Below the pieces are notes generated by a model, which was not told the DNA's origin, did no database searches, and saw only the letters and a list, made by a program, of their open reading frames with translations. The position numbers and the translations under genes were made by a program. A DNA stretch of 62,805 nucleotides from Lachnospiraceae bacterium. GTDB lineage: Bacteria; Bacillota; Clostridia; Lachnospirales; Lachnospiraceae. Within the stretch, counting starts at the first letter, position 1, and the number at the start of each line of letters is the position of its first letter. This document shows positions 5,374-49,085 of this stretch, piece after piece. The stretch is taken from assembly GCA_017552715.1 (NCBI GenBank), contig JAFZOW010000098.1, positions 1 to 62,805 on the forward strand. Direction: 5' to 3'.

Positions 5374-5595
5374 AAAGACAAAAAAATTTTTCTACCATAT
5401 ATAGTAAAGGAGGATAGAGAGGAGAAGCAGAAGCCACAAGATGCTGAAACCCAGCATTTTCAGGGGTTTGAGGACTTTCGGACACGTTGACATAATGGGA
5501 AATACACAATCCACACGGGGTGGGGCAGAGAAACGGAGTAAATGTTTTTCCGGATCTCTGTCCCGCCCCTTCGCACACTTAAGGAGGAAAATGTT
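5374..5595. other. Gap before the recombinase with an inverted repeat
   Basis: No gene is supported here. At 5444-5452 and 5464-5472 CTGAAACCC and GGGTTTGAG form a 9-base inverted repeat with one mismatch and an 11-base loop. It could be a recombinase binding or crossover site or an mRNA hairpin; neither is shown. A poly-A/poly-T run at 5382-5393 follows the beta-helix gene but does not make a convincing terminator. Confidence 0.35.
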
Positions 5596-19899: not shown

Positions 19900-20871
19900 T
19901 CAGCCCTTCACCGAACCGACCGTAAGACCCTTGATGAAGTACTTCTGGAAGAAGGGATATACGATCACGATGGGGCCTACGACCACCAGCACGGTAGCCA
20001 TGGTAGCAGTATACTGGGGAATGGTGCCGCCCATTGCCGCTCTTGCCGCGGAAGGAACGTTGGTATTGTTCAGCAGGAACTCGATACTCTTCTGGATACT
20101 TACCAGCAGCAGCTGCAGGGGCTTCTTGCTGTCAGAGGTGATGTAGAGCAGGGCGTTCTGCCAGTCGTTCCAGTAGGCTGTCGCCATCATGAAACCTACA
20201 GCTGCCATTGAAGGCTTCAGCAGAGGAAGGGTGATCTGGAAGAAGGTCCTCCACTCACCGGCCCCGTCGATCTTGGCCGCCTCCATCAGTTCCTTCGGTA
20301 TACTGTTAACAATGTAGGTTCGTAATATGATGACGTTCATCGTAGTCACACATAGGGGCAGTATCAGCAGAAGGATGTTATCCTTTAAGTGATAGTACCG
20401 GGTGAATACGATATATCCCGAAAGCTGACCGCCGTTGAAGAGCATGGGGATCAGCAGGAATACCAGTAAAAACTTGGAAAGCCTGAAATCCGGACGGCTG
20501 ATGGCGTATGCATACATGCTCATGATCAGAAGCCCGAGGGCGGTTCCGGCTACCGTTACGAAGATCGTTACCCCGTAGGATACCATCAGCTGTTTGCCGT
20601 AACGGAACACTGCGTTGATACCGTTCATGGACCACTGGCTGGGAATGAAACGGAATCCGTTCTTGGAAAGGGAGAGCTCATCCGCAAAGGCGGATACCAG
20701 CACCAGTTCCAGGGGCAGGAAACAGAACAGTGTATAGAGTATCAGCAGAAATGCCAGTACATACTGTCCGAAACCTTTTCTCTCTCTCCTGGAGGGAGCC
20801 AGGTCCAGATTTTTTGCTTTTTTATCCTTCTTAGAAGGGGTTACTTTCAAATTCTTTTCCATATCGCTCAT
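19900..20871 (-). CDS. Sugar ABC transporter permease (LplC/MalG type)
   Basis: A 323-residue inner-membrane permease with six predicted helices. A Lys-rich N-terminus (KKDKKAKNLDLAPSRRERKG) precedes the first helix. The EAA loop, which contacts the ATPase, is KELMEAAKIDGAGEWRTFFQITLPLLKP, and the end is FFQKYFIKGLTVGSVKG, as usual for this group. Start at 20871 with GGAGGGG upstream; a longer start would overlap the LplB gene. No ATPase gene lies nearby, so it likely uses a shared MsmK-type ATPase. Confidence 0.93.
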   Translation of the reverse strand: MSDMEKNLKVTPSKKDKKAKNLDLAPSRRERKGFGQYVLAFLLILYTLFCFLPLELVLVSAFADELSLSKNGFRFIPSQWSMNGINAVFRYGKQLMVSYGVTIFVTVAGTALGLLIMSMYAYAISRPDFRLSKFLLVFLLIPMLFNGGQLSGYIVFTRYYHLKDNILLLILPLCVTTMNVIILRTYIVNSIPKELMEAAKIDGAGEWRTFFQITLPLLKPSMAAVGFMMATAYWNDWQNALLYITSDSKKPLQLLLVSIQKSIEFLLNNTNVPSAARAAMGGTIPQYTATMATVLVVVGPIVIVYPFFQKYFIKGLTVGSVKG

Positions 20872-20884
20872 CTCATCCCCCTCC

Positions 20885-21790
20885 TTAGAATAATGCGTTC
20901 TCGGGCTGTATCTTGCGGACCGTAAAGTTCGCAAAGAGCATCAGCAGCAGACCGATCACCGACTGGAACAGGGATGCCGCAGCGGTAAAGCCGAAGTTCG
21001 AAGATGTAAGGATCGCGTTCAGCACGTAGGAGTCGATAACCTGTGTGGTGCTGTAAAGCATACCGCTGTTTCGCGTTACCTGGTAGAACAGACCCGTATC
21101 GGAGTGCATTATTCCACCGACGGAGAGGAGCAGCATGACCGTCACCATGGGGATCAGGCTGGGCAGGGTGATATGCCATATCCTCTGCCATTTGCTGGCG
21201 CCGTCGATCTCGGCCGCCTCGTACAGTTCCGCATCGATACCGGCCAGAACCGACATGTAAAGCACCGAACCGTAACCCGTATCCTTCCAGATCTTGATGA
21301 TCAGCAGGATCCAGGGCCACATGGATGCGGTGGAGTAAAATCTGTAATCCGTTCCCAGGGTGGTATTGATGATACCCGTATCGGAACTGATGAATGCGAA
21401 AGCGATGAACTGAACCGCGGCGTAGGAGATGAACACCGGGATGATCATGATGGTCTGCATTGCCTTGGCCATCTTCTTAAAGAAGAGCTGGTCGATGGCG
21501 ATGGCCAGGGTCACATTCAGGAACGTTCCCACAGCCGTAAAGAGCAGGTAGTACAGAAGAGTGTTCTTGGTGATATTGATGAAGGTCTTCTTGGAACCTA
21601 ACAGAAGCTTGAAGTTATCCAGACCGTTCCAGGGGCTTCCCCAGATGCCGCCCTGATAGTCAAACTTCTTGAATGCCAGTACAAGACCCCCCATAGGAAC
21701 GTACATGATAAAGAACAGAACAAGGAAGGCAGGTAATGCCATCAACACGTGCGCTCTGTGCTTCCATGTGTTACTTAAGAAATCCTTCAT
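20885..21790 (-). CDS. Sugar ABC transporter permease (LplB/MalF type)
   Basis: A 301-residue permease and first gene of this transport operon. It begins with a short cytoplasmic part and VLMALPAFLVLFFIMYVPMGG, has six helices, and carries the EAA loop AELYEAAEIDGASKWQRIWHITLP. It ends FTVRKIQPENALF, standard for LplB. A GGGGGAG site precedes the ATG. The LplC gene starts 13 bases downstream. Confidence 0.93.
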   Translation of the reverse strand: MKDFLSNTWKHRAHVLMALPAFLVLFFIMYVPMGGLVLAFKKFDYQGGIWGSPWNGLDNFKLLLGSKKTFINITKNTLLYYLLFTAVGTFLNVTLAIAIDQLFFKKMAKAMQTIMIIPVFISYAAVQFIAFAFISSDTGIINTTLGTDYRFYSTASMWPWILLIIKIWKDTGYGSVLYMSVLAGIDAELYEAAEIDGASKWQRIWHITLPSLIPMVTVMLLLSVGGIMHSDTGLFYQVTRNSGMLYSTTQVIDSYVLNAILTSSNFGFTAAASLFQSVIGLLLMLFANFTVRKIQPENALF

Positions 21791-21855
21791 GCTTTACTCC
21801 CCCAACTCGCATTTTATCGATATTTTCGCGGCGCGGGTACTGTTGCGCCATTAAC

Positions 21856-21884
21856 TATATACAACACTTTTTTACGTAAAGCAA
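21856..21884 (-). promoter_or_regulatory. Promoter of the LplBC-binding protein operon
   Basis: TTGCTT, 17 bases, TATATA, giving a leader of about 60 bases before the lplB start. Confidence 0.65.
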
Positions 21885-21916
21885 GGAAATTTTGCATTCA
21901 TGACATATTTTTGTTA

Positions 21917-21929
21917 GTTTTTGACAAAA
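21917..21929. promoter_or_regulatory. Possible regulator site upstream of lplB
   Basis: TTTTTG-A-CAAAAA is a perfect palindrome about 33 bases upstream of the -35 box, a usual place for an activator such as an AraC-type regulator. The region is AT-rich, so chance is possible. Confidence 0.3.
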
Positions 21930-22002
21930 ATGAGGGTTGCGTTTTAATTATATTCACAACCTGTTCATAGTGCGTTCATAAACTTACAAGATTTGGGGGT
22001 AA

Positions 22003-22037
22003 AAATATAGGAACCCCTTTTCGGGTCCCTATATTTT
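22003..22037 (-). terminator. Terminator after the LRR lipoprotein gene
   Basis: On the minus strand AAATATAGGGACCC pairs with GGGTTCCTATATTT around a 7-base loop with one wobble, ending in TTT. It is nearly symmetric, so it could stop transcripts from both sides. Confidence 0.75.
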
Positions 22038-22091
22038 GTCGGGGTACTGTTCATAATTAGCTGGTAGCGGGTTTTTGGCCCCGAAGGGGGC

Positions 22092-23135
22092 TTATTCGGC
22101 ATAATGCGGGTCGACATAATTATCCCTGAACATGGCCCTCATGGCATTATAATGAGGCCCGCTGCGCCAGCCCTGATCGATGGAACCTTCCCCTTCCCGT
22201 ACGATGGTACAGTTGGGGTACAGAGCCTGGAGCTCCGCCACCTGATCCCAGGGCACATGGGTATGTTCGATCCAGAGCCGCTCCAGATGGGGTTTATCCC
22301 GCAGATATTCGATGGAACGCAGGCCGGTATAGCTACAGTTTAAGTCCTCCAGATCCGGCAGATACTGCAGGAAGGTAAAATCCTGGATATTGTTGGCGAA
22401 AAACTCCAGGTATTTCAGCTTGGGCACATACTGCAGCATGGACAGATCCGTTATGGTATGACGGGGTCCGTCGGGCATATCCCACTCCTTCACGTTATCC
22501 ACCAGGATCAGGATCTGCAGCTTGGGCATATACTGTAAAAAGCTTAAGTCGGAAACGAAATTATGCCCCAGATCCAGAGCCACCAGATCCGTGCAGTATT
22601 TCAGATAATAGGCTTCATCATTGTGCATGAAGAAATCGTCGCTGGTGACCTTAAAGGATGAGAAGGCCACCACATCCGTCCGCAGGGTCCAGTGGCTTAA
22701 GACGATCTCCCAGATCAGGCGTACATCCGGGTGGGCATCCTGCAGAGCCGCATAGCCGTCGTTATCCAGACCGCAGTCGATCATGGTGAGGCGCTTCAGT
22801 TCCGGAAGATTATCCAGCACTTCATCCATATCGATATCGCTGACATCGATGCCGGAGATATCCGCCTCCGCCGCATCCAGCGGTATACGTATGTCCCCTA
22901 CCAGAACCCCTTCCTCGCTGACTGCGGGTATGGGTGTAGGCGTGGGGCTGGCTGCGGGAGTCGGTGTGGGCGTGGGAGTCGGCGTGCTCACCGCCAGTTC
23001 ATCCTCGGTCTGCTGGGCCGCTCCGGCCGCGATACGCCCGTCCGCGCCGGGAGTAGGGGCCGCAGTGCCGCTGCCGCTCTGAGCACAGGCTGTAAGAAGC
23101 AATATAAAGACTGATAACGCAAGGCTTTTCTTCAT
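22092..23135 (-). CDS. Leucine-rich-repeat lipoprotein
   Basis: A 347-residue surface lipoprotein. Signal MKKSLALSVFILLLTAC; then a Thr-Pro linker (about 50-72) that should span the wall. The rest holds leucine-rich repeats: LPELKRLTMIDCGL, CTDLVALDLGHNFVSDLSFLQYMPKLQILILVDN, YVPKLKYLEFFANNIQDFTFLQYLPDLEDLNCSYTGL and KPHLERLWIEHTHV. Likely a binding protein; partner unknown. The signal peptide fixes the start, and the -10 box lies only 9 bases before it, with no ribosome binding site, so the message may be leaderless. Confidence 0.85.
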   Translation of the reverse strand: MKKSLALSVFILLLTACAQSGSGTAAPTPGADGRIAAGAAQQTEDELAVSTPTPTPTPTPAASPTPTPIPAVSEEGVLVGDIRIPLDAAEADISGIDVSDIDMDEVLDNLPELKRLTMIDCGLDNDGYAALQDAHPDVRLIWEIVLSHWTLRTDVVAFSSFKVTSDDFFMHNDEAYYLKYCTDLVALDLGHNFVSDLSFLQYMPKLQILILVDNVKEWDMPDGPRHTITDLSMLQYVPKLKYLEFFANNIQDFTFLQYLPDLEDLNCSYTGLRSIEYLRDKPHLERLWIEHTHVPWDQVAELQALYPNCTIVREGEGSIDQGWRSGPHYNAMRAMFRDNYVDPHYAE

Positions 23136-23144
23136 AGCGAAGTT

Positions 23145-23173
23145 ATTTTACTCTTTTGCAAAGGGCTTTTCAA
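23145..23173 (-). promoter_or_regulatory. Promoter of the LRR gene, next to the start codon
   Basis: TTGAAA, 17 bases, TAAAAT, then 9 bases to the ATG. Transcription should begin about 2 bases before the start codon. Confidence 0.7.
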
Positions 23174-23204
23174 GATTACATAACGAAAAATACGGGGCTT
23201 TTCC

Positions 23205-23234
23205 TTGACAGCTTCAAAATACGGGAAGTAGAAT
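23205..23234 (+). promoter_or_regulatory. Promoter of the metallophosphoesterase gene, next to the start codon
   Basis: TTGACA, 18 bases, TAGAAT, then 7 bases to the ATG at 23242. This predicts a message with no leader. Confidence 0.75.
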
Positions 23235-23241
23235 GTGAACT

Positions 23242-24156
23242 ATGAAAAAGATCCTGATATTACTGACATTATGCCTGCTGCTCCTTTACGGCTGCGGAAA
23301 AGAGCCGGAACCCGACACCCGGAACTTTTCACCGAAGGCGGAAACAGTGGAGATATCACTGCCTGCAGCCTCCCGGGAATATAAGCTGCTATGGCTTTCC
23401 GACCTGCACATGGTGCTGCCGGGAAAAGAGGGTGATCCCGCCCAACAGGACGCCATCGATGCCCGGACAGCTTATTCCACCTCAGGCGGCATCCCGGCTG
23501 CGGAACAGTGGGAGCTCTGGATCCCTTATCTGACGGATGCGAAAGCCGATGCCCTGCTCTTCGGCGGGGATATGCTGGATCTCTGCAGTACGGAAGGGGT
23601 CGATACGCTCTCGGAGGGCTTCGCAAAGCTGGAAAGCCCTTATATCTACCTGCGGGCGGATCACGACCTGCTGCCGACCTACCTGAAAGATTACGATGTG
23701 CAGGGGGCCTGGGATAAGCAGAGCAGCCTGTGCAAGAACGAAGGCGTCATGAGCATGGCTTTCGACGACTTTACCCTGATAGCCTGGAACAATTCCACCT
23801 CGGAGCTGACGGACAGCGGGCTGGAACGCATACTCCAGCTGGTGGACGAGGGTAAGCCCCTGGTGCTCCTCACCCACGTACCCATCGCACCGCTGGAGGA
23901 TGAAAGCCTGGCGGAAGCTTCCCGGGCCGCCTTCGACGGCCGTGTGCTGCTGTGGGGCTACGGGGACTGCGAATATGTGCCCGGTCCGAATACAAGGCAG
24001 CTCCTGGACCTGCTTTATGCGGAGGATTCTCCCTTCATTGCCGTTTTTGCCGGTCATCTGCATTTTTCCTGGGACGGCTATATAAACAAAAACGTGCCGG
24101 AGCACGTTTTCGGGCCGGCCTTCGCCGGAGATCACGGTATCATCACTTTGAAATAA
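23242..24156 (+). CDS. Metallophosphoesterase-fold lipoprotein
   Basis: A 304-residue lipoprotein (signal ending LLYGCG) of the calcineurin-like phosphoesterase fold. Metal motifs in order: LSDLHM, FGGDMLDL, LRADHDLLP, LLTHVPI and FAGHLHFSW. The usual GNHD block reads RADHD, so the metal-binding Asn is replaced by Asp. The enzyme should act outside the membrane; the substrate is unknown. Divergent from the LRR gene and convergent with GH13, whose stop is 6 bases away. Confidence 0.85.
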   Translation: MKKILILLTLCLLLLYGCGKEPEPDTRNFSPKAETVEISLPAASREYKLLWLSDLHMVLPGKEGDPAQQDAIDARTAYSTSGGIPAAEQWELWIPYLTDAKADALLFGGDMLDLCSTEGVDTLSEGFAKLESPYIYLRADHDLLPTYLKDYDVQGAWDKQSSLCKNEGVMSMAFDDFTLIAWNNSTSELTDSGLERILQLVDEGKPLVLLTHVPIAPLEDESLAEASRAAFDGRVLLWGYGDCEYVPGPNTRQLLDLLYAEDSPFIAVFAGHLHFSWDGYINKNVPEHVFGPAFAGDHGIITLK

Positions 24157-24162
24157 AAGCTC

Positions 24163-26295
24163 TTATTCTGTATGCCCTCCGAAGCACAGCCCGCCGTCGC
24201 CGCCGTGACGCAGGATGATGGCGGAATGCTTGGGCAGCGTTACCTGGATGCGTCCGTTCTCCATCCAGTATTCTTCACGGCTGTCGTCAAAGCCTTCCTC
24301 CGTAGTGATCATGATCAGCTTCAGCGTGGCATTTTTCCGTATGCCCAGCTGCCAGAGAGTAAACTCCCTTGTCACTTCTTCGTCGTTATTGTTCAGGAAA
24401 ACAGCACTCTGCCCTTCCCTGTCGAAACGGCCAAAGCCTATGATCCCCGGCTCGGAAGCCAGCACGGCGATGGAGCCGTATTTGAATTCATGATAGCGCT
24501 TGCGGATGCTGATCATCTTTTTATGAAAAGCGATCATCTCCTGGTCCTCATTCCCCCAGGGATAGGTACGGCGGTTATCGGGATCCGTCCAGCCGCAAAG
24601 CCCGGCTTCATCACCGTAGTAGATGGTGGGAGCCCCGATCCAGGTGAACTGGAAGAGTACCGCTTCGCGCATGACCGCCTTGTTGATGCCCTGTTCCGCC
24701 GCCTCGGGGCCAGCCGTGGCCGTACGGCCCACACGCCGGTTGGTACGGGTCAGGAAACGGGAATGATCGTGATTGGACAGCTCGTTCATGGTAAGCTGCA
24801 GGGACTGCATGGTCATGTCCGAAGCATGATACATCATGGCGGCCCAGAAATTGGAAGCATTGTTCAGCTGGTCTTTCCGGAAATCATCGCTGTGCTTCTG
24901 CATGCCCGTAAGGAACCAGGTGATGGGTTCCATAAAGGCATCGTAGTTCATCACCGTATCCCATTCATTACCCTGCAGCCAGGCTGCGGGGGAGCCGTAA
25001 TGCTCCGCCAGGATAAGGGCATCGGGATTGGCTTCCTTTACGGCCTTACGGAAATCCTGCCAGAACTTATGGTTATACTCCGTGGAATGGCCCAGATCCG
25101 CCGCCACGTCCAGACGCCAGCCGTCTGCATTGTAGGGGGGGCTCACCCACTTCTTCGCGATACGCAGGATATAATCATGCAGGTCCTGGGACCCCTCGTA
25201 ATTCAGCTTGGGCAGGGTATCATGCCCCCACCAGCCGTCATAGGTGGAGTTATAGGGCCACTTACCGGACTGCGCATCATGAAAACGGAAAAAGTCGTGG
25301 TACGGGCTCTTTTCATCCACATAGGCGCCCTTCTCATAGCCCTCCGCATTTTCGTAGATCCGCTCACGGTCCAGCCACTTATTAAAGGATCCACAATGAT
25401 TAAACACACCGTCCAGGATCACGCGTATACCGCGCTTATGGGCTTCCTCCACCACCTTGGCAAAGAGGGCATTACTGGCCTCCAGATTGGCGGGGTTCGT
25501 CACACGGTTTATATAGCGTGTGGCATGGGTATTATCCTTATCTCCCTCATTCAGCAGCTCGCCTTTTTCTTCCGCGATCACGCCGAAATGGGGATCGATA
25601 TTATCATAATCCTGGATATCGTACTTATGATTGGACGGCGAAACAAAGAGGGGATTGAAATAGATCACCTCTACCCCCAGATTCTGCAGGTAGTCCATCT
25701 TATTCAGCACACCCTGAAGGTCGCCGCCGTAAAACTCCCGCACATCCATGCTGGCGGGATATTTGCTCCACTCCTCCACATGACGGGTATGCTCACCGAT
25801 GTAGCTGTATTCGTCCGTCTGCACATCGTTGGAAGGATCGCCGTTGCAGAAGCGGTCCACAAAGATCTGGTACATGACGGCTCCCTGGGCCCATTTCGGT
25901 GTGGAAAAGCCGGGGATGATCTTGAACTTGAAATGCTCGTCCACGCTCTTCACCACGCCCCGGGTATCAAAGATCACCGTTATATTGCCCACATGGATCT
26001 CGAAGTAGTAAGCAAAGAGCTCGTTATCCATCTGCACATCCGCGGCGAAATAATCAAAAAGCTCGTCCCGGGCGTCCAGTGTCATGTAGTACTTTTCCGT
26101 CCCTGAAACGAGCCATACCGTATCGATATTATAGGCGGCACCACGGAGACGGATCTTTACCTTCTCGTAGGCCGAGGGCTGCGAGGGGGTAACATAATTC
26201 TCCGTGATGTCCGAATAAAGCGCCTGCTTGCGGAGTATGGGCCGCATGCCTGCGATGTAGTATTGATTAAGTTTTGCGAAATTTCCTTCAGCCAT
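24163..26295 (-). CDS. GH13 alpha-glycosidase (neopullulanase/cyclomaltodextrinase type)
   Basis: A 710-residue starch-family enzyme with no signal peptide, so cytosolic. An N-terminal beta domain (about 25-130) is followed by the catalytic barrel. Conserved regions: DGVFNH (I), GWRLDVAAD with nucleophile D396 (II), ILAEHYG with acid/base E431 (III), and LSNHDHSRF (IV). A C-terminal beta domain begins near 620. It likely splits short maltodextrins or pullulan pieces after import. The promoter -10 box lies 7 bases before the ATG, so the mRNA may be leaderless. Confidence 0.92.
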   Translation of the reverse strand: MAEGNFAKLNQYYIAGMRPILRKQALYSDITENYVTPSQPSAYEKVKIRLRGAAYNIDTVWLVSGTEKYYMTLDARDELFDYFAADVQMDNELFAYYFEIHVGNITVIFDTRGVVKSVDEHFKFKIIPGFSTPKWAQGAVMYQIFVDRFCNGDPSNDVQTDEYSYIGEHTRHVEEWSKYPASMDVREFYGGDLQGVLNKMDYLQNLGVEVIYFNPLFVSPSNHKYDIQDYDNIDPHFGVIAEEKGELLNEGDKDNTHATRYINRVTNPANLEASNALFAKVVEEAHKRGIRVILDGVFNHCGSFNKWLDRERIYENAEGYEKGAYVDEKSPYHDFFRFHDAQSGKWPYNSTYDGWWGHDTLPKLNYEGSQDLHDYILRIAKKWVSPPYNADGWRLDVAADLGHSTEYNHKFWQDFRKAVKEANPDALILAEHYGSPAAWLQGNEWDTVMNYDAFMEPITWFLTGMQKHSDDFRKDQLNNASNFWAAMMYHASDMTMQSLQLTMNELSNHDHSRFLTRTNRRVGRTATAGPEAAEQGINKAVMREAVLFQFTWIGAPTIYYGDEAGLCGWTDPDNRRTYPWGNEDQEMIAFHKKMISIRKRYHEFKYGSIAVLASEPGIIGFGRFDREGQSAVFLNNNDEEVTREFTLWQLGIRKNATLKLIMITTEEGFDDSREEYWMENGRIQVTLPKHSAIILRHGGDGGLCFGGHTE

Positions 26296-26302
26296 GCCAA
26301 GT

Positions 26303-26331
26303 AGTATATCACTTTACATAAGATTTCGCAA
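26303..26331 (-). promoter_or_regulatory. Promoter of the GH13 gene, next to the start codon
   Basis: TTGCGA, 17 bases, TATACT, then 7 bases to the ATG at 26295. The -35 box starts just past the dnaJ terminator. Confidence 0.7.
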
Positions 26332-26335
26332 GTAA

Positions 26336-26360
26336 GAGCCTTTCCTCCCGGAAAAGGCTC
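26336..26360 (-). terminator. Likely terminator of the hrcA-grpE-dnaK-dnaJ operon
   Basis: GAGCCTTTTCC and GGAAAGGCTC form a stem of 10 pairs with one bulge. The following T-run is weak (TTACTT), so it may be leaky. It lies 10 bases past the dnaJ stop. Confidence 0.6.
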
Positions 26361-26370
26361 ACGTAAATGC

Positions 26371-27552
26371 TCAGAAGAAGCGTTTCTTCTTTTTCTTTCC
26401 GGGAGGTTCATCTCCGGAATGCTCGGCCCGGAAACGCTCTGCCGCATGAAGGCTGTCGCCGCTCTCCATATCGAACTCCTTCAGCAGCTCCTTGGCCTTC
26501 AGGCTCAGCCTCGTAGGGACCTGCACCAGGAGCATCACATAATGGTCGCCCCTGTTCCTGGCGTCACGCAGGGAAGGAACACCCTTGCCCTTCAGCCTTA
26601 CCCTTGTATCCGTGGCGGTTCCCGGCTTCACCTCGTATACCACCGGCCCGTCCACGGTCTCGATGATGATCTCGCCGCCCAGGGCCGCTACAGCGAAGGG
26701 TACCTGCACATTGGAATATATGTCACGGTCTTCCCGCTGGAAGATGGGATGCGGGGATACCACAGCCTCCACCAGCACATCCCCTCTGGGGCCGCCGTTC
26801 TGTCCCGGTTCCCCGAGACCGCTCATACGCTTATACTGACCGTTATCCACGCCTGCGGGGAATTCCACCTCATACTTTTTCCGCATGGATACATAGCCGC
26901 TGCCGCCGCAGTCCGGGCACTTCTCACGGACGATCTTACCGCTGCCATGGCAGTCGGGGCAGGTCTGCACGTTCTGCATCACGCCGAAAAAGCTCTGCTG
27001 GGAAAAGACCACCTTACCCTTACCGCCGCACTTCGGGCAATTGTCCACGCTGCTGCCGGGCTTTGCACCGCTGCCGCCGCAGGTCTTGCAGGGATCCTTG
27101 ACGTTCAGCTCCAGCTCCTTCTTACAGCCGAAGACCGCTTCCTCGAAGGTGAGCCGCACGCTGGTACGCAGGTTGGCTCCCTTCATGGGACCGTTGCTGC
27201 GGCCGCCGCTGCGGCGTGCACCGCCGCCGAAAGCACCGCCGAAGAGATCGCCGAAGATACCTCCGAACAGATCCTCAAAATCCATGGTGGAATAGCCGCC
27301 GAAGGGATTACCGCCTGCGCTGCCGTCAAAGGCCGCATGCCCGAACTGGTCGTACTGGCGGCGCTTATCCGCATCGGAAAGCACACCGTAGGCTTCGGAG
27401 GCTTCTTTGAATTTTGCTTCGGCTTCCTTATCGCCGGGGTTCATGTCGGGGTGATACTTCTTGGCGAGCTTACGGTAAGCCGCCTTGATCGTGGCGTCAT
27501 CCGCGCTCTTGTCCACGCCCAGCACTTCATAATAATCTCTTTTTTCAGCCAT
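26371..27552 (-). CDS. dnaJ: Chaperone protein DnaJ
   Basis: A 393-residue Hsp40. J domain 1-70 with H34-P35-D36, the motif that stimulates DnaK. A Gly/Phe-rich linker (about 75-125) follows, then four CxxCxGxG zinc motifs ([32 protein letters not shown]) and the substrate domain. The tail GKKKKKRFF is basic. It is separated from dnaK by a 300-base gap holding a large nested palindrome. Confidence 0.97.
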
Positions 27553-27611
27553 GACTCTTACTCCAATTTCCGGGAAATGATTCCTTCAGATCACGTACAG
27601 CGTGTTTCTCT

Positions 27612-27833
27612 ATGCATACGCAGAAAGAAGCAGCCCCCCTTGCTTGTTGCCTCCGCACGTAAGCTCGTGCATCGCGTCCTGAAACCGACTCGCCCGAGGC
27701 AACTCGCTTGCTCGCGCCTATCAGAACAGGGCGCGAGCTTCGCTCAGACAGTACCTCGGGCGAGATTGGACGCTCGCACTCGCTAAGTGCTGCGGCAATG
27801 CTGCGGGTGCATGCTTCTTATCTGCGTATGCAT
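27612..27833. repeat. Large nested palindromic element between dnaK and dnaJ
   Basis: Outer arms 27612-27632 and 27812-27833 are complementary over 21 bases with a single-base bulge. Inside them lie a perfect 11-base pair of arms (27689-27699 with 27754-27764, CTCGCCCGAGG) and, within that, a perfect 9-base hairpin (27710-27718 with 27730-27738, GCTCGCGCC, 11-base loop). Each flank carries a further small hairpin (27655-27670 and 27776-27790). TGCTGCGG is repeated at 27788 and 27799. There is no coding frame. It could be a palindromic repeat element, an mRNA processing or attenuation structure, or an RNA. It fills most of the 300 bases between the two genes. Confidence 0.8.
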
Positions 27834-27852
27834 CTGCATGATCGCGCTTTTC

Positions 27853-29763
<1,911 letters not shown>

Positions 29764-29770
29764 CTAGAAA

Positions 29771-30415
29771 TCAATTAGCCACTTTCACCATACTGTGCCG
29801 TACTACGGAATCCCGGTAGGTGTAACCCTTCTGCAGTTCCTCCACCACCGTGTTGTCGGGGCTTTCCTCGTCCTCCACATGCATCACCGCGTTGTGCAGG
29901 TTGGGATCGAACTCTTTCCCCACCGCCTCGATGGGCTTTACTTCCAGTTTGCCAAGCTCATCCATGAGCTGCTTATATACCATCTGCATTCCGTCGGCGA
30001 AAGGATTCTTTTCTCCCTCCGGTAATGCCCCCAGGCCCCGTTCGAAGTTGTCCACCACCGGCAGGAGCTTTTCGATCACGCTCTTTGCACCGGTCTCGAA
30101 CATGGCCTGTTTTTCTTTTTCCGTACGCTTGCGGTAGTTCTCGAACTCCGCCATCTGCCTCATCAGCTTATCCTTAAGCTCGGCTACCTTTGCATTTCCG
30201 CCCTCTTCCGGAGCTTCCTCTGCGGCTTTCTCCGGAGTTTCCTCCGAAGGGCTTTCTACCTTAGCCTCTTCTTTTACCTCTTCCTGTGCCGCCTCTTCCT
30301 TTGCGGCCTCCTCAGCGGGAGCTTCTTCCTTTGCTGCCTCCGCTTCCGCGGCTTCCTTCAGCTCATTCAGCTTTTCTATGGTCTGTTCCCGCGAAGTCTT
30401 CTTTTTCTTGCCCAT
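29771..30415 (-). CDS. grpE: Nucleotide exchange factor GrpE
   Basis: A 214-residue partner of DnaK that promotes ADP release. The first 75 residues are an Ala/Glu-rich low-complexity tail; then comes the long dimer helix (about 75-135) and a beta domain (GKEFDPNLHNAVMHVED, VVEELQKGYTYRDSVVRHSMVKV), the GrpE signature. It begins 2 bases after hrcA ends. Confidence 0.96.
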   Translation of the reverse strand: MGKKKKTSREQTIEKLNELKEAAEAEAAKEEAPAEEAAKEEAAQEEVKEEAKVESPSEETPEKAAEEAPEEGGNAKVAELKDKLMRQMAEFENYRKRTEKEKQAMFETGAKSVIEKLLPVVDNFERGLGALPEGEKNPFADGMQMVYKQLMDELGKLEVKPIEAVGKEFDPNLHNAVMHVEDEESPDNTVVEELQKGYTYRDSVVRHSMVKVAN

Positions 30416-30417
30416 TG

Positions 30418-31464
30418 CTATTGCTCTCCCTTCCGCTTGCCCTTGTAGGTCCGCTCCAGCTCGTTCATCATGGTCCGCAGGGAGCTCACTACCTTATCAT
30501 AATCCATGCGCTTGGGGCCGATGATGGCGATACTCCCGCGCATGCCTTCTTCCAATTCATATGTGGCGGTTACCACGCTGCAGTCCTTCATGGACTGTAT
30601 GGGGGCTTCTTCCCCGATGTAGACCTGTATGCCGGTCTCGCCCTCTTCCGAAAGTTTGTCCGTGGCCAGCTTTGCCAGTGCCTGCTTTTCTTCGAAGGCC
30701 CGTATCAGTTCTCCCGCGTGGCCCTGATCCGTCAGTTCCGGATATTTCAGTATATTGTTGGCTCCGCTGGTGTAAACCTCCAGGTCTTCCTCGCCCTTTA
30801 TGGTGGCCGCCACGGCATCGATCACGTTACCGATGATGTCGCCGTAAACTCCGGCCTGTTCCTTCATGGCAGTGATCATGCCCAGATTGATCTGTTCCAT
30901 GGTCAGCCCGTTCAAGTGGGTGTTTAAGAGGATGTTGAGCTTCAGCATGTTCTCATCGCTTAAGCTTTCATCCACATGGATCATCTCGTTGCGGATCACA
31001 TTGCCTTCCACCACGATGACCGCCAGGAGCTGGTTCTCATCCACCTTGGAAAGCTGGAGGAATTTCAGCCTTCTGCCGCTGATCTGGGGAGCGCTCACTA
31101 CCGTGGCGTAATTGGTATTGGTGGCCAGCAGGTTCGCCACGTTCTTCAGGACCTTGTCCATCTTGTTCTCGGTGGCCAGGAGCAGTCCCTTCAGTTCCTC
31201 GATCTCCTTATCCTTCTCCTCCATCATGCTGTCCACGTACAGACGATAGGCCTGATCCGTGGGGATACGGCCGGCGGAGGTGTGGGGCTGGATGATATAG
31301 CCCATCTCTTCCAAGTCGCTCATCTCGTTACGTATGGTGGCAGAGCTTAAGTTCAGATCCGTGTATTTGGAGATGGTCCGGCTGCCTACCGGCTCACCGG
31401 TCTCCAGGTAATTCCGGATGACAGCATGCAGGATCTTTTTTTTCCGTTCATCCAATTCATCCAT
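30418..31464 (-). CDS. hrcA: Heat-inducible transcription repressor HrcA
   Basis: A 348-residue repressor of the heat-shock operon. It begins with a winged helix (about 1-75; GEPVGSRTISK and SSATIRNEMSDLEEMGYI) and has PHTSAGRIPTDQAYRLYVD, a family hallmark. First gene of hrcA-grpE-dnaK-dnaJ. It should bind the CIRCE site 37 bases upstream and so repress its own operon. Confidence 0.97.
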   Translation of the reverse strand: MDELDERKKKILHAVIRNYLETGEPVGSRTISKYTDLNLSSATIRNEMSDLEEMGYIIQPHTSAGRIPTDQAYRLYVDSMMEEKDKEIEELKGLLLATENKMDKVLKNVANLLATNTNYATVVSAPQISGRRLKFLQLSKVDENQLLAVIVVEGNVIRNEMIHVDESLSDENMLKLNILLNTHLNGLTMEQINLGMITAMKEQAGVYGDIIGNVIDAVAATIKGEEDLEVYTSGANNILKYPELTDQGHAGELIRAFEEKQALAKLATDKLSEEGETGIQVYIGEEAPIQSMKDCSVVTATYELEEGMRGSIAIIGPKRMDYDKVVSSLRTMMNELERTYKGKRKGEQ

Positions 31465-31500
31465 TATATACTGTCAGCCTCCTTTACCTTTTTGTTTTTG

Positions 31501-31527
31501 TTAGCACTCGATTTGGTAGAGTGCTAA
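31501..31527. promoter_or_regulatory. CIRCE operator
   Basis: TTAGCACTC, 9 bases, GAGTGCTAA: a perfect match to the CIRCE consensus, the HrcA binding site. It starts 12 bases downstream of the -10 box of the hrcA promoter. Confidence 0.97.
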
Positions 31528-31539
31528 CATTCTGGAAAT

Positions 31540-31568
31540 AAAATACCACCCCGAAGGGTGGTTGTCAA
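31540..31568 (-). promoter_or_regulatory. Promoter of the hrcA operon
   Basis: TTGACA, exactly 17 bases, TATTTT. The spacer is itself a 7-base-pair hairpin (see the terminator at the same place). CIRCE follows directly. Confidence 0.8.
31545..31562 (-). terminator. Hairpin inside the hrcA promoter spacer, likely terminator of the DUF6465 gene
   Basis: ACCACCC and GGGTGGT close a TTCG loop on the minus strand, a very stable form, followed by ATTTTATTT. It lies 27 bases past the stop of the upstream gene, so it probably ends that transcript while serving as promoter spacer for the next. Confidence 0.65.
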
Positions 31569-31588
31569 TACTTTTTTAAAACTTTCGC

Positions 31589-32116
31589 CTAGAGCTCAAA
31601 ACTCCCGTTTCGTTTCTTATTAAATACGTAGTAGACTCTTTTCTCCCCGGGTTTGACATACAGCTCCATGCTGTGAAGCTCCGAACGTCCGCGCTTCATC
31701 TCCCTGGTCCAGATCTTCAGGGCCCGGTTTATAAGATCCTCGCGGCTGTAGGATTCACTGCCGTATTCCACGATGAGCTCTTCCTCGGTGGCGGGCTTGG
31801 GCGCCGCTTCCTCTTTTACCGGCTCTTCCTTCGCTTCCTCGACCTCTTCCTTTTCCTCTGCGGGTGCAGGAGCCGCTTTACGCTTTTCGCTGTGCTTGGT
31901 GCTCTCCACCAGCTGCTCCTTCAACAGGGCGCGGGTCTCCTCGCGGCTGAGGGAAAGAGGCGGTTCCACGGGACGCGGTGCTACCGGCTTCTCCCGGACG
32001 GGGGCCGGCTTCGCTTCCCGGAACTCTTCCAGCTTATCATCTTCAGGCAGGCTGGTCAGAAATGCTGCCGCCAGCGGCTTGATGATCTTTGTTCCTGCTT
32101 TTTTGTCTGCAGACAT
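31589..32116 (-). CDS. DUF6465-like protein
   Basis: A 175-residue cytosolic protein. The first 105 residues are low complexity, rich in Glu, Ala, Pro and Lys. The last 65 form a compact domain: LIVEYGSESYSREDLINRALKIW, then LHSMELYVKPGEKRVYYVFN, which I recall as the pattern of DUF6465 in Lachnospiraceae. Function unknown. It has its own promoter (32196-32224) and an 80-base leader with GAGGT. Confidence 0.6.
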   Translation of the reverse strand: MSADKKAGTKIIKPLAAAFLTSLPEDDKLEEFREAKPAPVREKPVAPRPVEPPLSLSREETRALLKEQLVESTKHSEKRKAAPAPAEEKEEVEEAKEEPVKEEAAPKPATEEELIVEYGSESYSREDLINRALKIWTREMKRGRSELHSMELYVKPGEKRVYYVFNKKRNGSFEL

Positions 32117-32195
32117 CTGATTTACCTCAATATGATCACGTCCGGCAGCTCCGGATGATCCGATGGTGAGAATGTATGTTTTACTCCTCTAACTA

Positions 32196-32224
32196 ACTAT
32201 AGACCATATTTATATATGTGTCAA
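32196..32224 (-). promoter_or_regulatory. Promoter of the DUF6465-like gene
   Basis: TTGACA, 17 bases, TATAGT. The -35 box touches the stop codon of the Sm-like gene upstream. Confidence 0.75.
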
Positions 32225-32482
32225 TCAGAATACCCTTATCCCGGGGGATGAAACCATATCCGGCCGGTTCGCCATCCGTTCCTCTTTATTCTTCAGGTCG
32301 GGGCACATGATGTGACTGATCTGGGATTTGTACACGATGATGCGATGGATATAGGCCCCCGCATCTTCTTCGATATAGAAGGCCTGGGGATCGGCTTCCT
32401 TCAGGACGCCGTCCACCCGCTGTCCGTTGGCCATTTCGCAGACAATGCGCTTTCCCACAAAGTTGAAATCCATATTGTTCAT
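32225..32482 (-). CDS. Small Sm/Hfq-like protein
   Basis: An 85-residue protein. Its core, FVGKRIVCEMANGQRVDGVLKE ... then IIVYKSQISHI, reads like an Sm fold: Sm1-like ANGQRVDGVL, and an ending YKSQISHI that resembles the YKHAIS motif of Hfq, in the right order and spacing. The C-terminal 27 residues are polar. If correct it may bind RNA as a ring. Identity to Hfq is low, and other small beta-barrel families remain possible. It overlaps the aminotransferase stop by 4 bases and has AAAGGAG upstream. Confidence 0.5.
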   Translation of the reverse strand: MNNMDFNFVGKRIVCEMANGQRVDGVLKEADPQAFYIEEDAGAYIHRIIVYKSQISHIMCPDLKNKEERMANRPDMVSSPGIRVF

Positions 32483-33669
32483 CTTCCGTACTCTCCTTTC
32501 ACAAAGCTTTCCAGCGCCTTTAAGCTGCGCTCCACTTTTTCGGTATCGATACAGTACGCCATGCGGAAGTATCCCTCCACACCGAAGCCGTCCGAGGGTA
32601 CCAGGATCAGTTCGTACTTCTTCGCTTTCTCGCAGAAGGCCTTTGCATCCGCTTCCAGCGCCTTCGGGAAGATATAGAAGGTGCCTCCGGGCCGGGTCAC
32701 CTCAAAGCCGAGCTTCGTAAGCTCATCATAAAGTATGTTCATGTTGGTCTCGTATACGGAAAGGTCGCTGGTCATGTCGATACAGCGGGCCATGGCCATC
32801 TGTATGATGGAGGAGGGGCAGTTATGGCCTATGCCCCTGGAGATCTGTACGCACATGGGTACGATACTCTCCGCGTCCTTGGCCTTCGGGTTTACCGCAA
32901 GGTAACCTATACGCTCTCCGGGAACGGAAAGGGACTTTGAAAAGGAATAGCAGCTTAAGCTGTTATCATAGAAGGCCGACACATAGGGGGCCTTCTGCCC
33001 GTCGTATACGATCTCGCGGTAGGGTTCGTCCGAGATCAGGAAGATCTCGTGACCGTACTTCTCCTCCGCCTCCTTCATCATGGAAGCCAGACGGGTGAGG
33101 GTCTCCGCCGTGTACATGCTGCCGGAAGGATTGTTGGGTGTGTTGATGAGCACCGCCTGCACATTCTCATCCAGCATACTCCCGAAGGCTTCAAAATCGA
33201 TCTGGAAGTTCTTTGTATCCGCAGGCACCAGTTTAAGGACCGCACCGCTCTCGTTTACATAAGGAAAATACTCGGAAAAACAGGGGGCAAAAGAGAGCAC
33301 CGTATCCCCGGGTTTGGTCACACAGCGTACCGCATGGGCGATGGCCGAAGCCGCCGCACTGGTCATGAAGATATGCTCCGCTCCGTAGTCCAGGCCGAAA
33401 CGGCGTTTCAGCGAATCCGCAACAATGGCCCTTACCTCGGGGTTCCCGGGGTTGGGGCTGTAACCGTGAAGAGCCGCGGAGCTTTTCTCCTTAGTCAGCT
33501 CCCGTATCGCTTCATTAAAAGCCTCGGGCACAGGTACGGAAGGATTCCCCAGACTGTAGTCGAATACATTCTCATAGCCGATCTCGCGGCCCCTCTCCGC
33601 CGCAAAGCCGGCCAGGGCGCGTATCATGGACGGTGCACTGCACATTTCCTTATAGTGTTGTGAAAGCAT
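32479..33669 (-). CDS. PLP-dependent aminotransferase (class I/II)
   Basis: A 396-residue aminotransferase of the AspC/AlaT type. Visible are YDYSLGNPS-like FDYSLGNPSVP, the VLINTPNNPSG motif, the ISDEPYREIVYDG strand, the PLP-lysine region CYSFSKSLSVPGERIGY and the late RPGGTFYIFPKA. Substrate not assignable by eye. Start at 33669 from AAGGAGG 7 bases upstream; an upstream GTG abuts the -10 box and was not used. The leader carries a 59-base hairpin. Confidence 0.9.
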   Translation of the reverse strand: MLSQHYKEMCSAPSMIRALAGFAAERGREIGYENVFDYSLGNPSVPVPEAFNEAIRELTKEKSSAALHGYSPNPGNPEVRAIVADSLKRRFGLDYGAEHIFMTSAAASAIAHAVRCVTKPGDTVLSFAPCFSEYFPYVNESGAVLKLVPADTKNFQIDFEAFGSMLDENVQAVLINTPNNPSGSMYTAETLTRLASMMKEAEEKYGHEIFLISDEPYREIVYDGQKAPYVSAFYDNSLSCYSFSKSLSVPGERIGYLAVNPKAKDAESIVPMCVQISRGIGHNCPSSIIQMAMARCIDMTSDLSVYETNMNILYDELTKLGFEVTRPGGTFYIFPKALEADAKAFCEKAKKYELILVPSDGFGVEGYFRMAYCIDTEKVERSLKALESFVKGEYGR

Positions 33670-33692
33670 AACTTCCTCCTTATAATTTCTTT

Positions 33693-33751
33693 GCATGATA
33701 CTCCTCGGATTGCTCCGCATCTTCGATGCTCCCGCAATCCTGGTATCATGC
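33693..33751 (-). promoter_or_regulatory. Long hairpin in the aminotransferase leader
   Basis: Three stacked stems: GCATGATAC with GTATCATGC, GGATTGC with GCAATCC, and GCATC with GATGC around a 3-base loop. The transcription start is expected within the 5' arm and the hairpin ends about 10 bases before the AAGGAGG. No T-run, so it is not a simple terminator. It may stabilise the mRNA or bind a regulator. Confidence 0.65.
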
Positions 33752-33753
33752 AC

Positions 33754-33782
33754 ATTATATCAGTAACAAATCCATTTGACAA
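33754..33782 (-). promoter_or_regulatory. Promoter of the aminotransferase operon
   Basis: TTGTCA, 17 bases, TATAAT on the minus strand. Its -35 box shares bases with that of the divergent promoter. Confidence 0.75.
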
Positions 33783-33804
33783 AGCATTTAAAGCATATTA
33801 TACT
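33776..33804 (+). promoter_or_regulatory. Promoter of the lipoprotein gene at 33900
   Basis: TTGACA, 17 bases, TATACT. The -35 boxes of this and the opposing promoter both lie in the palindrome TTTGACAAA. Confidence 0.8.
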
Positions 33805-33899
33805 CACTATGGTTGATTTTATGTAAACAAAATCCCGGCTGGGAGGCTTCCGGCCTGCTTTGTCCGGGATATTCAGGAGAAACAAAGAAGGGAGCAGAC

Positions 33900-35171
33900 A
33901 TGAAAAAGCTTGGCATTTTTGTTGCAGCAGGGGCGATGATGCTGGCACTTGCCGGCTGCGGCAAGATCACTGTGGATCCGAGCGAATTCGTGACCGTCAA
34001 TTTTGAAGGTTATGATACTCTCGGCACAGCTACCTATGAGTTTGATTACAAACACTTCATCCGTGAATACGAGGATACCCTGAAACTTACCGGAGCCGGA
34101 AAGAAGGCTTCCGAGGAGATGGAGGAAGAAGCTGATAAAAAGGGCGAAGAGCTGGGTGTGAAATTCCACGACAGTCCCGCTGATTACCTGGCCGTATATA
34201 TCGGCGGATCCCTGGATAAGACGGACGCTCTGTCCAACGGCGATTCCGTTACCTGGAAATGGGATGCGGATACCGATAAGATCGCTGAGTACTTCAACTG
34301 CGATATCGTACTTGAAGATAAATCCTTCAAGGTGGAAGGCCTGACGGAAGCGGAAGCTTTTGATCCCTTTGAGGGGCTGGAAGTGGTCTTTTCCGGCACC
34401 GCCCCCAACGGACAGGCACGCCTTTCCACTTCCTACTGCGAGAAATGCAGCGGCATTTCTTTCGAGATCGACAAGCAGAGCGGTCTTTCCAACGGCGACA
34501 CCGTCACCGTTACCGCCAGCAGCTACGGCGACGATCTGGTAAGCTACATCGTGGAGAACTACGGCATGCTGCCCACCGAGGAAGTCAAGACCTTTACCGT
34601 GAGCGGACTGCCGGAGTACATCCTTTCGGCTGCGGATCTTTCCGATGCGACCCTGGACAAGATGATCGCCCAGGCTAAGGATGCCCTGACGGCCAGTGCT
34701 GCCAACTGGGGAACTGCCGAACTGATCGATGCGGAATACATCGGAAACTACTTCCTGGCAGCCAAGAATCCCGATGTCTGGGGAGACCAGAATTCCATCA
34801 CCCTGGTGTTCCGCGAGGATATGGAATGCACTTACACCAAAGATAAGACCGACTTCATCACCTATAACAGCATCTACTACGGCTTTACCTGGACGAATGT
34901 CATGGTCCTGGAAGACGGGACCGAGACTCTGGATCTTGGGAGCTACAGAAAACGCTACAGTTACATTCCGGTGACCTATTACTATAAAGATCGTAAGGGA
35001 AAAGAGTTATCCACCAATTACTATTTCGACGGATACTCCGATCTGGACAGCATGTTCAACGATATCGTGACCAAGAACGTGGAAAACTACAGTTACGAAA
35101 ACAACGTCACCGACACCGAACCCCAGTATCCCGTAGAGGAAGCGGAAGAAGAGGAAGAAGAAGACGAATAA
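33900..35171 (+). CDS. Lipoprotein of unknown function
   Basis: A 423-residue surface lipoprotein (signal ending ALAGCGK). The N-terminal half repeats small beta domains with the phrase LSNGDSVTWKW/LSNGDTVTV, typical of Lachnospiraceae envelope proteins, each about 90-100 residues. The C-terminus is an acidic Glu run. Start at 33900, after GAAGGGAG. I do not recognise a named family. Single gene between a promoter and a strong terminator. Confidence 0.8.
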   Translation: MKKLGIFVAAGAMMLALAGCGKITVDPSEFVTVNFEGYDTLGTATYEFDYKHFIREYEDTLKLTGAGKKASEEMEEEADKKGEELGVKFHDSPADYLAVYIGGSLDKTDALSNGDSVTWKWDADTDKIAEYFNCDIVLEDKSFKVEGLTEAEAFDPFEGLEVVFSGTAPNGQARLSTSYCEKCSGISFEIDKQSGLSNGDTVTVTASSYGDDLVSYIVENYGMLPTEEVKTFTVSGLPEYILSAADLSDATLDKMIAQAKDALTASAANWGTAELIDAEYIGNYFLAAKNPDVWGDQNSITLVFREDMECTYTKDKTDFITYNSIYYGFTWTNVMVLEDGTETLDLGSYRKRYSYIPVTYYYKDRKGKELSTNYYFDGYSDLDSMFNDIVTKNVENYSYENNVTDTEPQYPVEEAEEEEEEDE

Positions 35172-35176
35172 ATCGA

Positions 35177-35211
35177 AAGCCCCGCGGCACTCGGCTGCGG
35201 GGCTTTTTTTT
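35177..35211 (+). terminator. Terminator between convergent lipoprotein and kinase genes
   Basis: AAGCCCCGCGGC and GCTGCGGGGCTT form a strong stem followed by eight T. The other strand also ends in a short T-run, so it may serve both genes. Confidence 0.92.
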
Positions 35212-35255
35212 GTATAGAAAATTGCTTCTCTTTTCCATTTGTACCCTGATCTTTC

Positions 35256-36677
35256 TTATTTTTCTTTTTCCTGTGCAAGCTCCAGAGAAAAGATGAACTC
35301 CGTTCCCACCCCCTCGGTGGAGATCACATTGATGTTCTCACCGTGAGCCCGGATGATCTCTTTGGTGATGGAAAGCCCCAGGCCCGTTCCCTTTTTATCC
35401 TTGCCCCGGGAGAGGTCGGATTTGTAGAAGCGGTTAAAGACCAGGGGCACGCTTTCCTTCGGGATACCGATACCGGAGTCTTTCACGGATACGAAGACCT
35501 TGTTATGCTTCTCGCTGGTCTCCAGCTTTATCGCGGAATTATGATGGCTGAATTTGATGGCGTTATCTATCAGATTGTATAGCACCTGCTGGATGCGGGT
35601 CATGTCGGCATGCACGGGGAGGGTCTGGCCCGTGAGGCGCAGCTCCATGGTGATATGCTTGGCGCGGCAGCTGCCCTCAAAGGTAGACACGCAGCGCCGG
35701 ATGAGGCCGTTGATATCGAAATCCGTAAGATCCAGTATCATGCCCTGGGTGTTCAGATTGTTCAGGGTAAGCAGATTGTTGGTCAGACGGGTCAGGCGCT
35801 CCGTCTCGTCCAGCACGATGCCGATGTATTTCGGATACTGTTCCTCGGGGATGGTGCCGTCCTGCATGGCACTTAAGTAACCGTTGATGCTGGTCAGCGG
35901 GGAGCGGAAATCGTGGGACACATTTGCCACGATACGTTTCTGGTTATCCTCTCCCCTGGCCAGTTCCTGGGCCATGTAAGCCAGAGAGGCCGCCAGATAA
36001 CCAATCTCGTCATCACTTTCCACGCTAAGCTGGTAACGAAGATTTCCGGAAGCATATTCCTCCGTAGCCGCGATGATATGCCGCAGGGGCATGTAGACCA
36101 TCTCGGTGAAGAAGATCAGGATGATCAGGGACAGCATGAAGAGGATCAGCAGCAGGATATAGTCGATGTCCACCAGATGATTCGAAGTGGTGACCAGCCG
36201 CGCCGTATTGTAATGGATCAGCACATAACCGCGGAGCGCATAACCCTGGGTGATGGGTGCCGCCACGGAAAGCCACTTCCCTTCGAACTGATGATAGAAA
36301 TCTCCCACCGTAAAGAAGGAGCCGGAAAGGGCCGTCATATCAAAGCCTTCCACCGTAGGGGGATTCTCCACGTCTACGGGGAGCTCGGAATCCAGCACCA
36401 CCAGGCCCGAAGGGTTCAGGATCTGCAGGCGAACGTTCAGCATTTCCGCATAGCGGTCCAGGGAAGCCTTCACGCTTTCCAGGGAGGCTTCGTTGCGGTA
36501 CAGCTCGGGTGCTTCCCTCTCGCTGATGACCCCGGCGATACGGTATAATTCCTCCGCCTTATCCTGCTGCAGACGGTTCAGGGTCATCTGCGGCATGAAT
36601 ATGGCTATGACTATGCCTCCGAAGACCGCGAAGATCAGGTAGGCTATGAGCAGTTTGAGATAAAGTGTGCGCTTCAT
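35256..36677 (-). CDS. Sensor histidine kinase with HAMP domain
   Basis: A 473-residue membrane kinase. Two membrane helices (about 8-30 and 172-192) flank an extracellular domain of 140 residues. Then HAMP (about 195-245), HisKA with H255 in NVSHDFRSPLTS, and ATPase boxes NLIDNAIKFS, DSGIGIP, VFNRFYKSD and GTGLGLSI. Partner of the regulator at 37378, whose gene it overlaps by 4 bases. Signal unknown. Confidence 0.95.
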   Translation of the reverse strand: MKRTLYLKLLIAYLIFAVFGGIVIAIFMPQMTLNRLQQDKAEELYRIAGVISEREAPELYRNEASLESVKASLDRYAEMLNVRLQILNPSGLVVLDSELPVDVENPPTVEGFDMTALSGSFFTVGDFYHQFEGKWLSVAAPITQGYALRGYVLIHYNTARLVTTSNHLVDIDYILLLILFMLSLIILIFFTEMVYMPLRHIIAATEEYASGNLRYQLSVESDDEIGYLAASLAYMAQELARGEDNQKRIVANVSHDFRSPLTSINGYLSAMQDGTIPEEQYPKYIGIVLDETERLTRLTNNLLTLNNLNTQGMILDLTDFDINGLIRRCVSTFEGSCRAKHITMELRLTGQTLPVHADMTRIQQVLYNLIDNAIKFSHHNSAIKLETSEKHNKVFVSVKDSGIGIPKESVPLVFNRFYKSDLSRGKDKKGTGLGLSITKEIIRAHGENINVISTEGVGTEFIFSLELAQEKEK

Positions 36678-48988: not shown

Positions 48989-49029
48989 TAATCAAGTCGC
49001 CTCTTTTCCTGCTGTATTAGGGAAACCCC

Positions 49030-49058
49030 ATTGTACGCCTTTTACAGCAGGAATTCAA
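49030..49058 (-). promoter_or_regulatory. Promoter of the MMPL-GLUG operon
   Basis: TTGAAT, 17 bases, TACAAT, about 40 bases upstream of the MMPL start. Confidence 0.65.
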
Positions 49059-49085
49059 GCGGCTGATTGTGACAAATCTGTGAAA

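Follow-up and report, generated by a model that had tools for sequence, protein, structure and literature searches.

ERIC, RUP, and Correia elements are MITE-like, dispersed intergenic palindromic units that carry no genes. REPINs, as set out in PMC3116915, are doublets of REP sequences that form hairpins, with highly conserved ends and a less conserved spacer; in the GI doublet, 71 bp lie between the 16-mers. Template switching between inverted-repeat arms is reported to homogenize the arms and to invert the spacers (PMC8604942).

The palindrome at 27612-27833 of the window, meaning the whole 62,805-nt stretch of Lachnospiraceae bacterium DNA that was analyzed, is one copy of a dispersed hairpin repeat family of some Lachnospiraceae. 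Like ERIC, RUP, and Correia elements, the family is dispersed, intergenic, palindromic, and gene-free. Unlike them, it has copy-specific arms. No terminal repeat general to the family was recognized, nor any target duplication, nor a parent insertion sequence, for which the transposase search covered PF01797; ends are common to some subfamilies only, and target duplications, of which none was seen at the copies, were judged by eye. With REPINs (PMC3116915), it shares non-coding, extragenic, dispersed inverted-repeat hairpin units and compensatory changes in part of the stem. However, the layout is the opposite of two conserved REP ends around a less conserved spacer, with a conserved interior and ends that vary by copy, and the units are ~200 nt or more. 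In addition, REPINs are paired with a RAYT (Y1 transposase) in the same genome, whereas we found no Y1 transposase in the genome under study. The inverted repeats of PMC8604942 resemble our family in having arms that are made alike and spacers that are inverted reversibly between related genomes, but those are short repeats and spacers in yeast genes, whereas our family is dispersed and the stretch that inverts is ~200 nt long.

The family is REPIN/MITE-like, with an invertible conserved interior and copy-specific complementary ends. A limited literature search found no name for such a repeat family in this group. Judging from sequence comparison, it is probably a dispersed repeat of this kind in which template switching homogenizes the arms and sometimes inverts the core.

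Anatomy and setting of the palindrome

As the earlier note on this DNA had placed it, the palindrome lies between dnaK and dnaJ, inside the 300-nt gap of an hrcA-grpE-dnaK-dnaJ operon. Pfam confirmed HrcA, GrpE, Hsp70, and DnaJ in the window operon, and the closest named DnaK proteins are those of Lachnospiraceae, including Butyrivibrio, at up to 85%. The genome under study is G000 (134 contigs); G, L, and C numbers label genomes, loci, and contigs throughout. The features of the region are as follows.

26371..27552, minus strand: dnaJ, downstream operon gene (Pfam DnaJ)
27612..27833, no strand assigned: whole palindromic repeat copy (sequence, RNA and DNA folds, other copies)
27612..27633, no strand assigned: left outer arm, copy-specific; pairs with 27812-27833 over 21 pairs with one bulge
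27650..27800, no strand assigned: conserved asymmetric core; matches the G000 copy on contig C103 at 148/151 positions
27689..27699, no strand assigned: perfect inner arm of 11 bases; pairs with 27754-27764
27710..27718, no strand assigned: terminal hairpin arm, perfect, 9 bases; pairs with 27730-27738
27730..27738, no strand assigned: partner of 27710-27718 (sequence, fold)
27754..27764, no strand assigned: partner of 27689-27699 (sequence, fold)
27812..27833, no strand assigned: right outer arm, copy-specific (sequence, fold)
27853..29745, minus strand: dnaK, upstream operon gene (Pfam Hsp70)
31501..31527, no strand assigned: CIRCE-pattern match upstream of hrcA (0 mismatches; 0.01 expected by chance)

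Folded as RNA, the 222 nt form a single end-to-end hairpin, its first base paired with its last, at -119.2 kcal/mol, against a shuffle mean of -80.05 (SD, 4.43; z = -8.84). None of 200 dinucleotide shuffles reached this stability, and no shuffle was as stable as the block folded as DNA (z = -7.78). The palindrome is real and beyond chance. Its outer arms and its perfect inner arms of 11 and 9 bases are just as had been described from the letters. The small flanking hairpins described with them are present in the fold but are unremarkable, with one terminator-like match in 27300-28100 against 1.1 expected. The block had also been said to have no coding frame; a plus-strand ORF (26419-27786) does overlap part of it, but this frame is antisense to dnaJ and was not taken for a gene. 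Palindromes this long are usually considered unstable in bacteria. Those of the present family persist between species despite this usual view.

One possible reading of such a hairpin is an intrinsic terminator or attenuator of dnaK-dnaJ alone, and several relatives do have a GC-rich hairpin with a TTGYGT-like tail behind it between the two genes (e.g., L030, L031, L033, and L139). However, we found no GC-rich stem with a T-run on the mRNA strand in 27300-28100, and the same repeat is present at unrelated loci. An intrinsic terminator was rejected because the sole match is on the wrong (plus) strand and at chance level; the reading as a whole, attenuator included, is highly improbable.

Dispersal of the family and behavior of its arms

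Searches across the whole genome and its relatives, including searches with a covariance model, returned many copies at unrelated loci. In G000, BLAST with the block gave seven further matching stretches (eight in all), of which two are near each other on C50, and the core covariance model gave at least 7 copies on 7 contigs, with C50 counted once. The first such model was built from 18 copies. Across the genus, with up to 87 or 150 candidates scored per genome, at least 14 of 35 genomes were matched at an E value of ≤0.001 (6 of 21 and 8 of 14 in two sets), with at least 85 model matches in total (43 + 42), some of them weak. The richest genomes were G024 and G012, with at least 21 and at least 19 matches, respectively, and 13 genomes from other genera gave no match to the 18-copy model. 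A second core model, built from 54 copies and run with stricter filters and up to 10 scored candidates per genome over 295 genomes of the order, matched at least two, the genome under study and G076, which belongs to another genus of the same family and had at least 4 matches. G330, the sole other genome of the G076 genus, is without a copy and is too distant from G076 for an empty-site comparison. In G076, locus L252 (contig C28) holds three long copies with common arms within ~4.3 kb (1490-1935, 4474-4664, and 5584-5763), the first of which is adjoined by two partial tandem copies.

The earlier note had offered a palindromic mobile repeat as one explanation, and the copies just described support it as far as dispersal is concerned, with no movement observed. 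Searches for the repeat in a plasmid collection and a phage collection gave no match, and viral_contigs gave no exact match to one family pattern, so that spread by phages or plasmids found no support.

For comparison of individual copies, 73 were tabulated. These are the 85 genus matches minus 12, namely, the split C50 copy of G000, four short copies of G019, one weak copy of G003, three copies of G006, two of G021, and one of G029. None of the 73 overlaps by more than 50 nt with an ORF, as called by a rough codon-score caller. The conserved core is an asymmetric hairpin, and the arms, mostly 20 to 75 nt, lie outside it; they are complementary within most copies and different between copies. 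Eight of the 73 copies have no or almost no arm, some of these at contig ends. Left and right arms of one copy were 0.76 identical over 65 copies, a value raised by the choice of those copies for alignable arms, whereas same-side arms of different copies in one genome were 0.58 identical (401 pairs; mean core identity, 0.756). Seven pairs of copies with core identities of at least 0.95 had arm identities of only 0.53 to 0.81, and in one pair from G001 (L157 and L163) the cores were identical at 144/144 positions while arm identity was 0.58. Nevertheless, arms are largely common within the G006/G021 and G024 subfamilies, and three G076 copies share theirs. Being shared within subfamilies yet otherwise copy-specific, the arms seem to accompany new copies at first and to change fast afterward, both sides together. 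In the 18-copy alignment, both-sided changes were seen at 14 of 29 consensus pairs, amounting to 48 cells against 13.2 in shuffles and 0 to 5 in slid controls.

Some copies have further features. Four near-identical copies in G019 (L166, L171, L176, and L180) have a 69-nt core-model match within a different surround ending CTCAGGATGAC; by contig coordinates, that at L176 lies on the dnaJ contig, slightly past the expected start of dnaK. At L197 and L209 of G024, the flanking reading frames are 96% and 94% similar and the cores agree at 131/134 positions, perhaps reflecting a duplicated region. A further palindromic sequence lies inside the family core at L192 of G031 (approximately 1501-1659).

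Core orientation at loci shared between species

Loci shared between species were identified by their flanking reading frames. Four were supported on both flanks, and the others were supported on one. The four are listed below.

dnaK-dnaJ locus, both flanks: L156 (G000) and L198 (G029), opposite orientation
Second shared locus, both flanks: L157 (G001) and L158 (G019), opposite orientation
Third shared locus, both flanks: L163 (G001) and L192 (G031), same orientation, with L189 (G025) inverted relative to both
Fourth shared locus, both flanks: L165 (G012) and L235 (G024), same orientation

At three of these four, the core is inverted in one species, so that related genomes differ in spacer orientation at a shared locus, as described for template switching. 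At the dnaK-dnaJ locus, the inner arms follow the core (scores of 17 for LL and 16 for RR, against 10 each for LR and RL). On the dnaJ side of the G029 copy, a third arm and its flank align with their dnaJ-side counterparts in G000, starting with 19 identical bases; the alignment score, which includes the homologous dnaJ flank, was 39.5, compared with at most 16.5 in 500 shuffles. The simplest reading of these sequences is that G029 inverted the unit and that a remnant arm of the other orientation was left behind. The arms at this locus are also the best matched of 36 cross pairs between G000 and G029, while 8 of the 36 are closer in the core. The core of the G000 copy resembles that of its paralogue L162 (0.98) more than that of its orthologue L198 (0.87).

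This pattern, in which the arms track the locus and the core tracks the genome, is clear at L156/L198 alone. For L157/L158 it is weak, with an arm identity of 0.72 against 0.67 for the best paralogue and core identities of 0.97 against 1.00. It was not seen for L163/L189, where 3 of 8 cross pairs have better arms, or for three G012/G024 pairs, where 46, 56, and 248 of 399 cross pairs do. Mean arm identity within copies exceeded that of the best cross-species arm in five of seven pairs, the exceptions being L156/L198 and L163/L192. Ten pairs were compared by core; the arm comparison excludes three of them, L189/L192 and one-flank L173/L200 (core, 0.52) and L196/L241 (core, 0.54).

Arm-to-arm template switching would account for arms that are complementary yet fast-changing, and for flips. 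The arrival of the palindrome between dnaK and dnaJ would predate the split of G000 from G029. Template switching during replication, with one arm copied from the other, would then have kept the arms of each copy alike and would sometimes have inverted the core, and recombination among copies may keep some cores alike within a genome. The family offers natural shared sites for measuring arm-to-arm correction and the inversion of a ~200-nt stretch. Alternatively, a single hot spot hit by separate insertions could produce opposite orientations at a shared locus.

It is also conceivable, but unlikely, that a mobile core inserts at the tips of pre-existing hairpins (REPINs, terminators, or operon hairpins), in which case the copy-specific arms would be the old host hairpin and shared loci would have been hit independently, in either orientation. 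That near-identical cores can carry very different arms fits this possibility, as does the fact that most relatives have a hairpin between dnaK and dnaJ; in G030 (L137), a second palindrome even appears to be nested within the loop of the gap hairpin. Also, of 40 copies in G012 and G024, 5 are flanked within 95 nt by the motif CGTCCC in mirror-image arrangement, and 5 more have it on a single side. Among the matches listed, three of the five mirrored copies (L182, L225, and L227) match short repeats at L219, the locus of a Y1 transposase gene of G012, and also at L221 and L218. We label the CGTCCC-type repeats REPs and the G012 Y1 gene RAYT-like. The mirrored motif together with the matches at the Y1 locus suggests either insertion into REPINs or capture of REPINs, and the mirrored copies keep insertion into existing structures alive as an explanation. 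Against it, core and inner arms have turned together at dnaK-dnaJ, where G029 still carries an arm of the opposite orientation. Moreover, the arms at this locus are by eye unlike the gap hairpins of relatives, and arms are partly common within subfamilies (G006/G021, G024, and the three G076 copies). A mobile element that recognizes DNA secondary structure rather than sequence, with the core delivered into existing hairpin tips, is a doubtful proposition. If it were true, such an element would borrow its stems from the host, build ever larger nested palindromes, and carry its core either way round.

Among seven genomes searched for the Y1 transposase domain PF01797, it was found in G001, G012, and G029 and not in G000, G006, G021, or G028. 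Mobilization by a RAYT of its own genome was therefore rejected for the G000 family members, as that genome gave no PF01797 match.

Strand tests and hairpins in the dnaK-dnaJ gap

The earlier note had also raised a novel RNA, for which covarying bases would be confined to dnaK-dnaJ. The dispersed copies speak against this: the repeat is held by only 2 of 33 dnaK-dnaJ gaps of the genus, those of G000 and G029, in opposite orientations, and both-sided changes are found at dispersed loci, without a G-U preference. An RNA confined to dnaK-dnaJ was rejected on account of these copies. A known Rfam RNA was likewise rejected, as a scan of 20000-36000 with Rfam 15 gave no match at the block at an E value of ≤1. 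Elsewhere in the scanned region, 33696-33768 (minus strand) gave a sub-threshold match to Clostridiales-1 RNA (30.7 bits, gathering score of 48; E = 0.0021).

A broader version, in which transcripts are made from the copies and selection maintains the hairpin as an sRNA or as a cis element setting the DnaK:DnaJ ratio, could draw on the both-sided changes described above. If RNA pairing on a fixed strand were selected, G-U mismatches in the arms should exceed A-C mismatches. The counts were nearly equal (51 versus 53 overall and 20 versus 24 for isolated ones), taken relative to core orientation and not to the host transcript of each copy. Gene context, assigned with the rough caller trained on six window genes, was mixed: 28 of the 73 copies could be classified (45 were unclassified), of which 13 were co-directional on the minus strand, 10 were co-directional on the plus strand, 3 were convergent, and 2 were divergent. 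The lack of a G-U preference and the mixed gene orientation argue against a one-strand RNA, as do the opposite orientations of the G000 and G029 copies and the empty Rfam scan. On the other side, just 6 of 65 copies have a core plus strand that folds better than the minus strand, and on the core plus strand pyrimidine-pyrimidine mismatches outnumber purine-purine ones, both among isolated arm mismatches (33 versus 13; P = 0.0045) and among all (125 versus 37). This bias is not predicted by plain template switching, and a strand-specific role keeps some plausibility because of it. As an explanation of the family, a selected structured RNA nonetheless seems improbable.

Hairpins of other sequence are common in the gap. 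In 26 of 30 other dnaK-dnaJ gaps of the genus z was below -2 (median, -3.77), whereas among the window's other co-directional gaps 9 of 20 did so (median, -1.85), a rough control from one genome; this difference, too, would be in keeping with a selected RNA. The 30 are the 33 gaps without those of G000 and G029, which hold the repeat, and G020, whose gap is 3 nt; in G008 and G022, the search of genus genomes gave no DnaJ match. Elsewhere in the window, another inverted repeat at 48995-49064, with 27-nt arms that are 74% complementary, lies in a structured gap (gap z, -3.77).

Because relatives carry other hairpins in the same gap, a generic role is possible: a hairpin may be useful here regardless of its sequence, and the repeat, standing where relatives have shorter hairpins, may fill that role. 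Its effect on the operon would most likely be that of any strong hairpin in this position, on mRNA stability or read-through. A part in the DnaK:DnaJ ratio, as the earlier note had proposed, is conceivable given the other hairpins of relatives. A title-level literature search found no paper on a hairpin in the dnaK-dnaJ gap. An operon that has the repeat at the place of other hairpins in relatives could be used to ask whether some hairpin, of whatever sequence, is required there. The dnaK-dnaJ gaps of G001, G019, and G025 (among L027, L029, L140, and L142) hold another repeat, of the GTCATCCTGAGCGAAGCGAAGGATC type, and a relative of it lies in the gap of G028.
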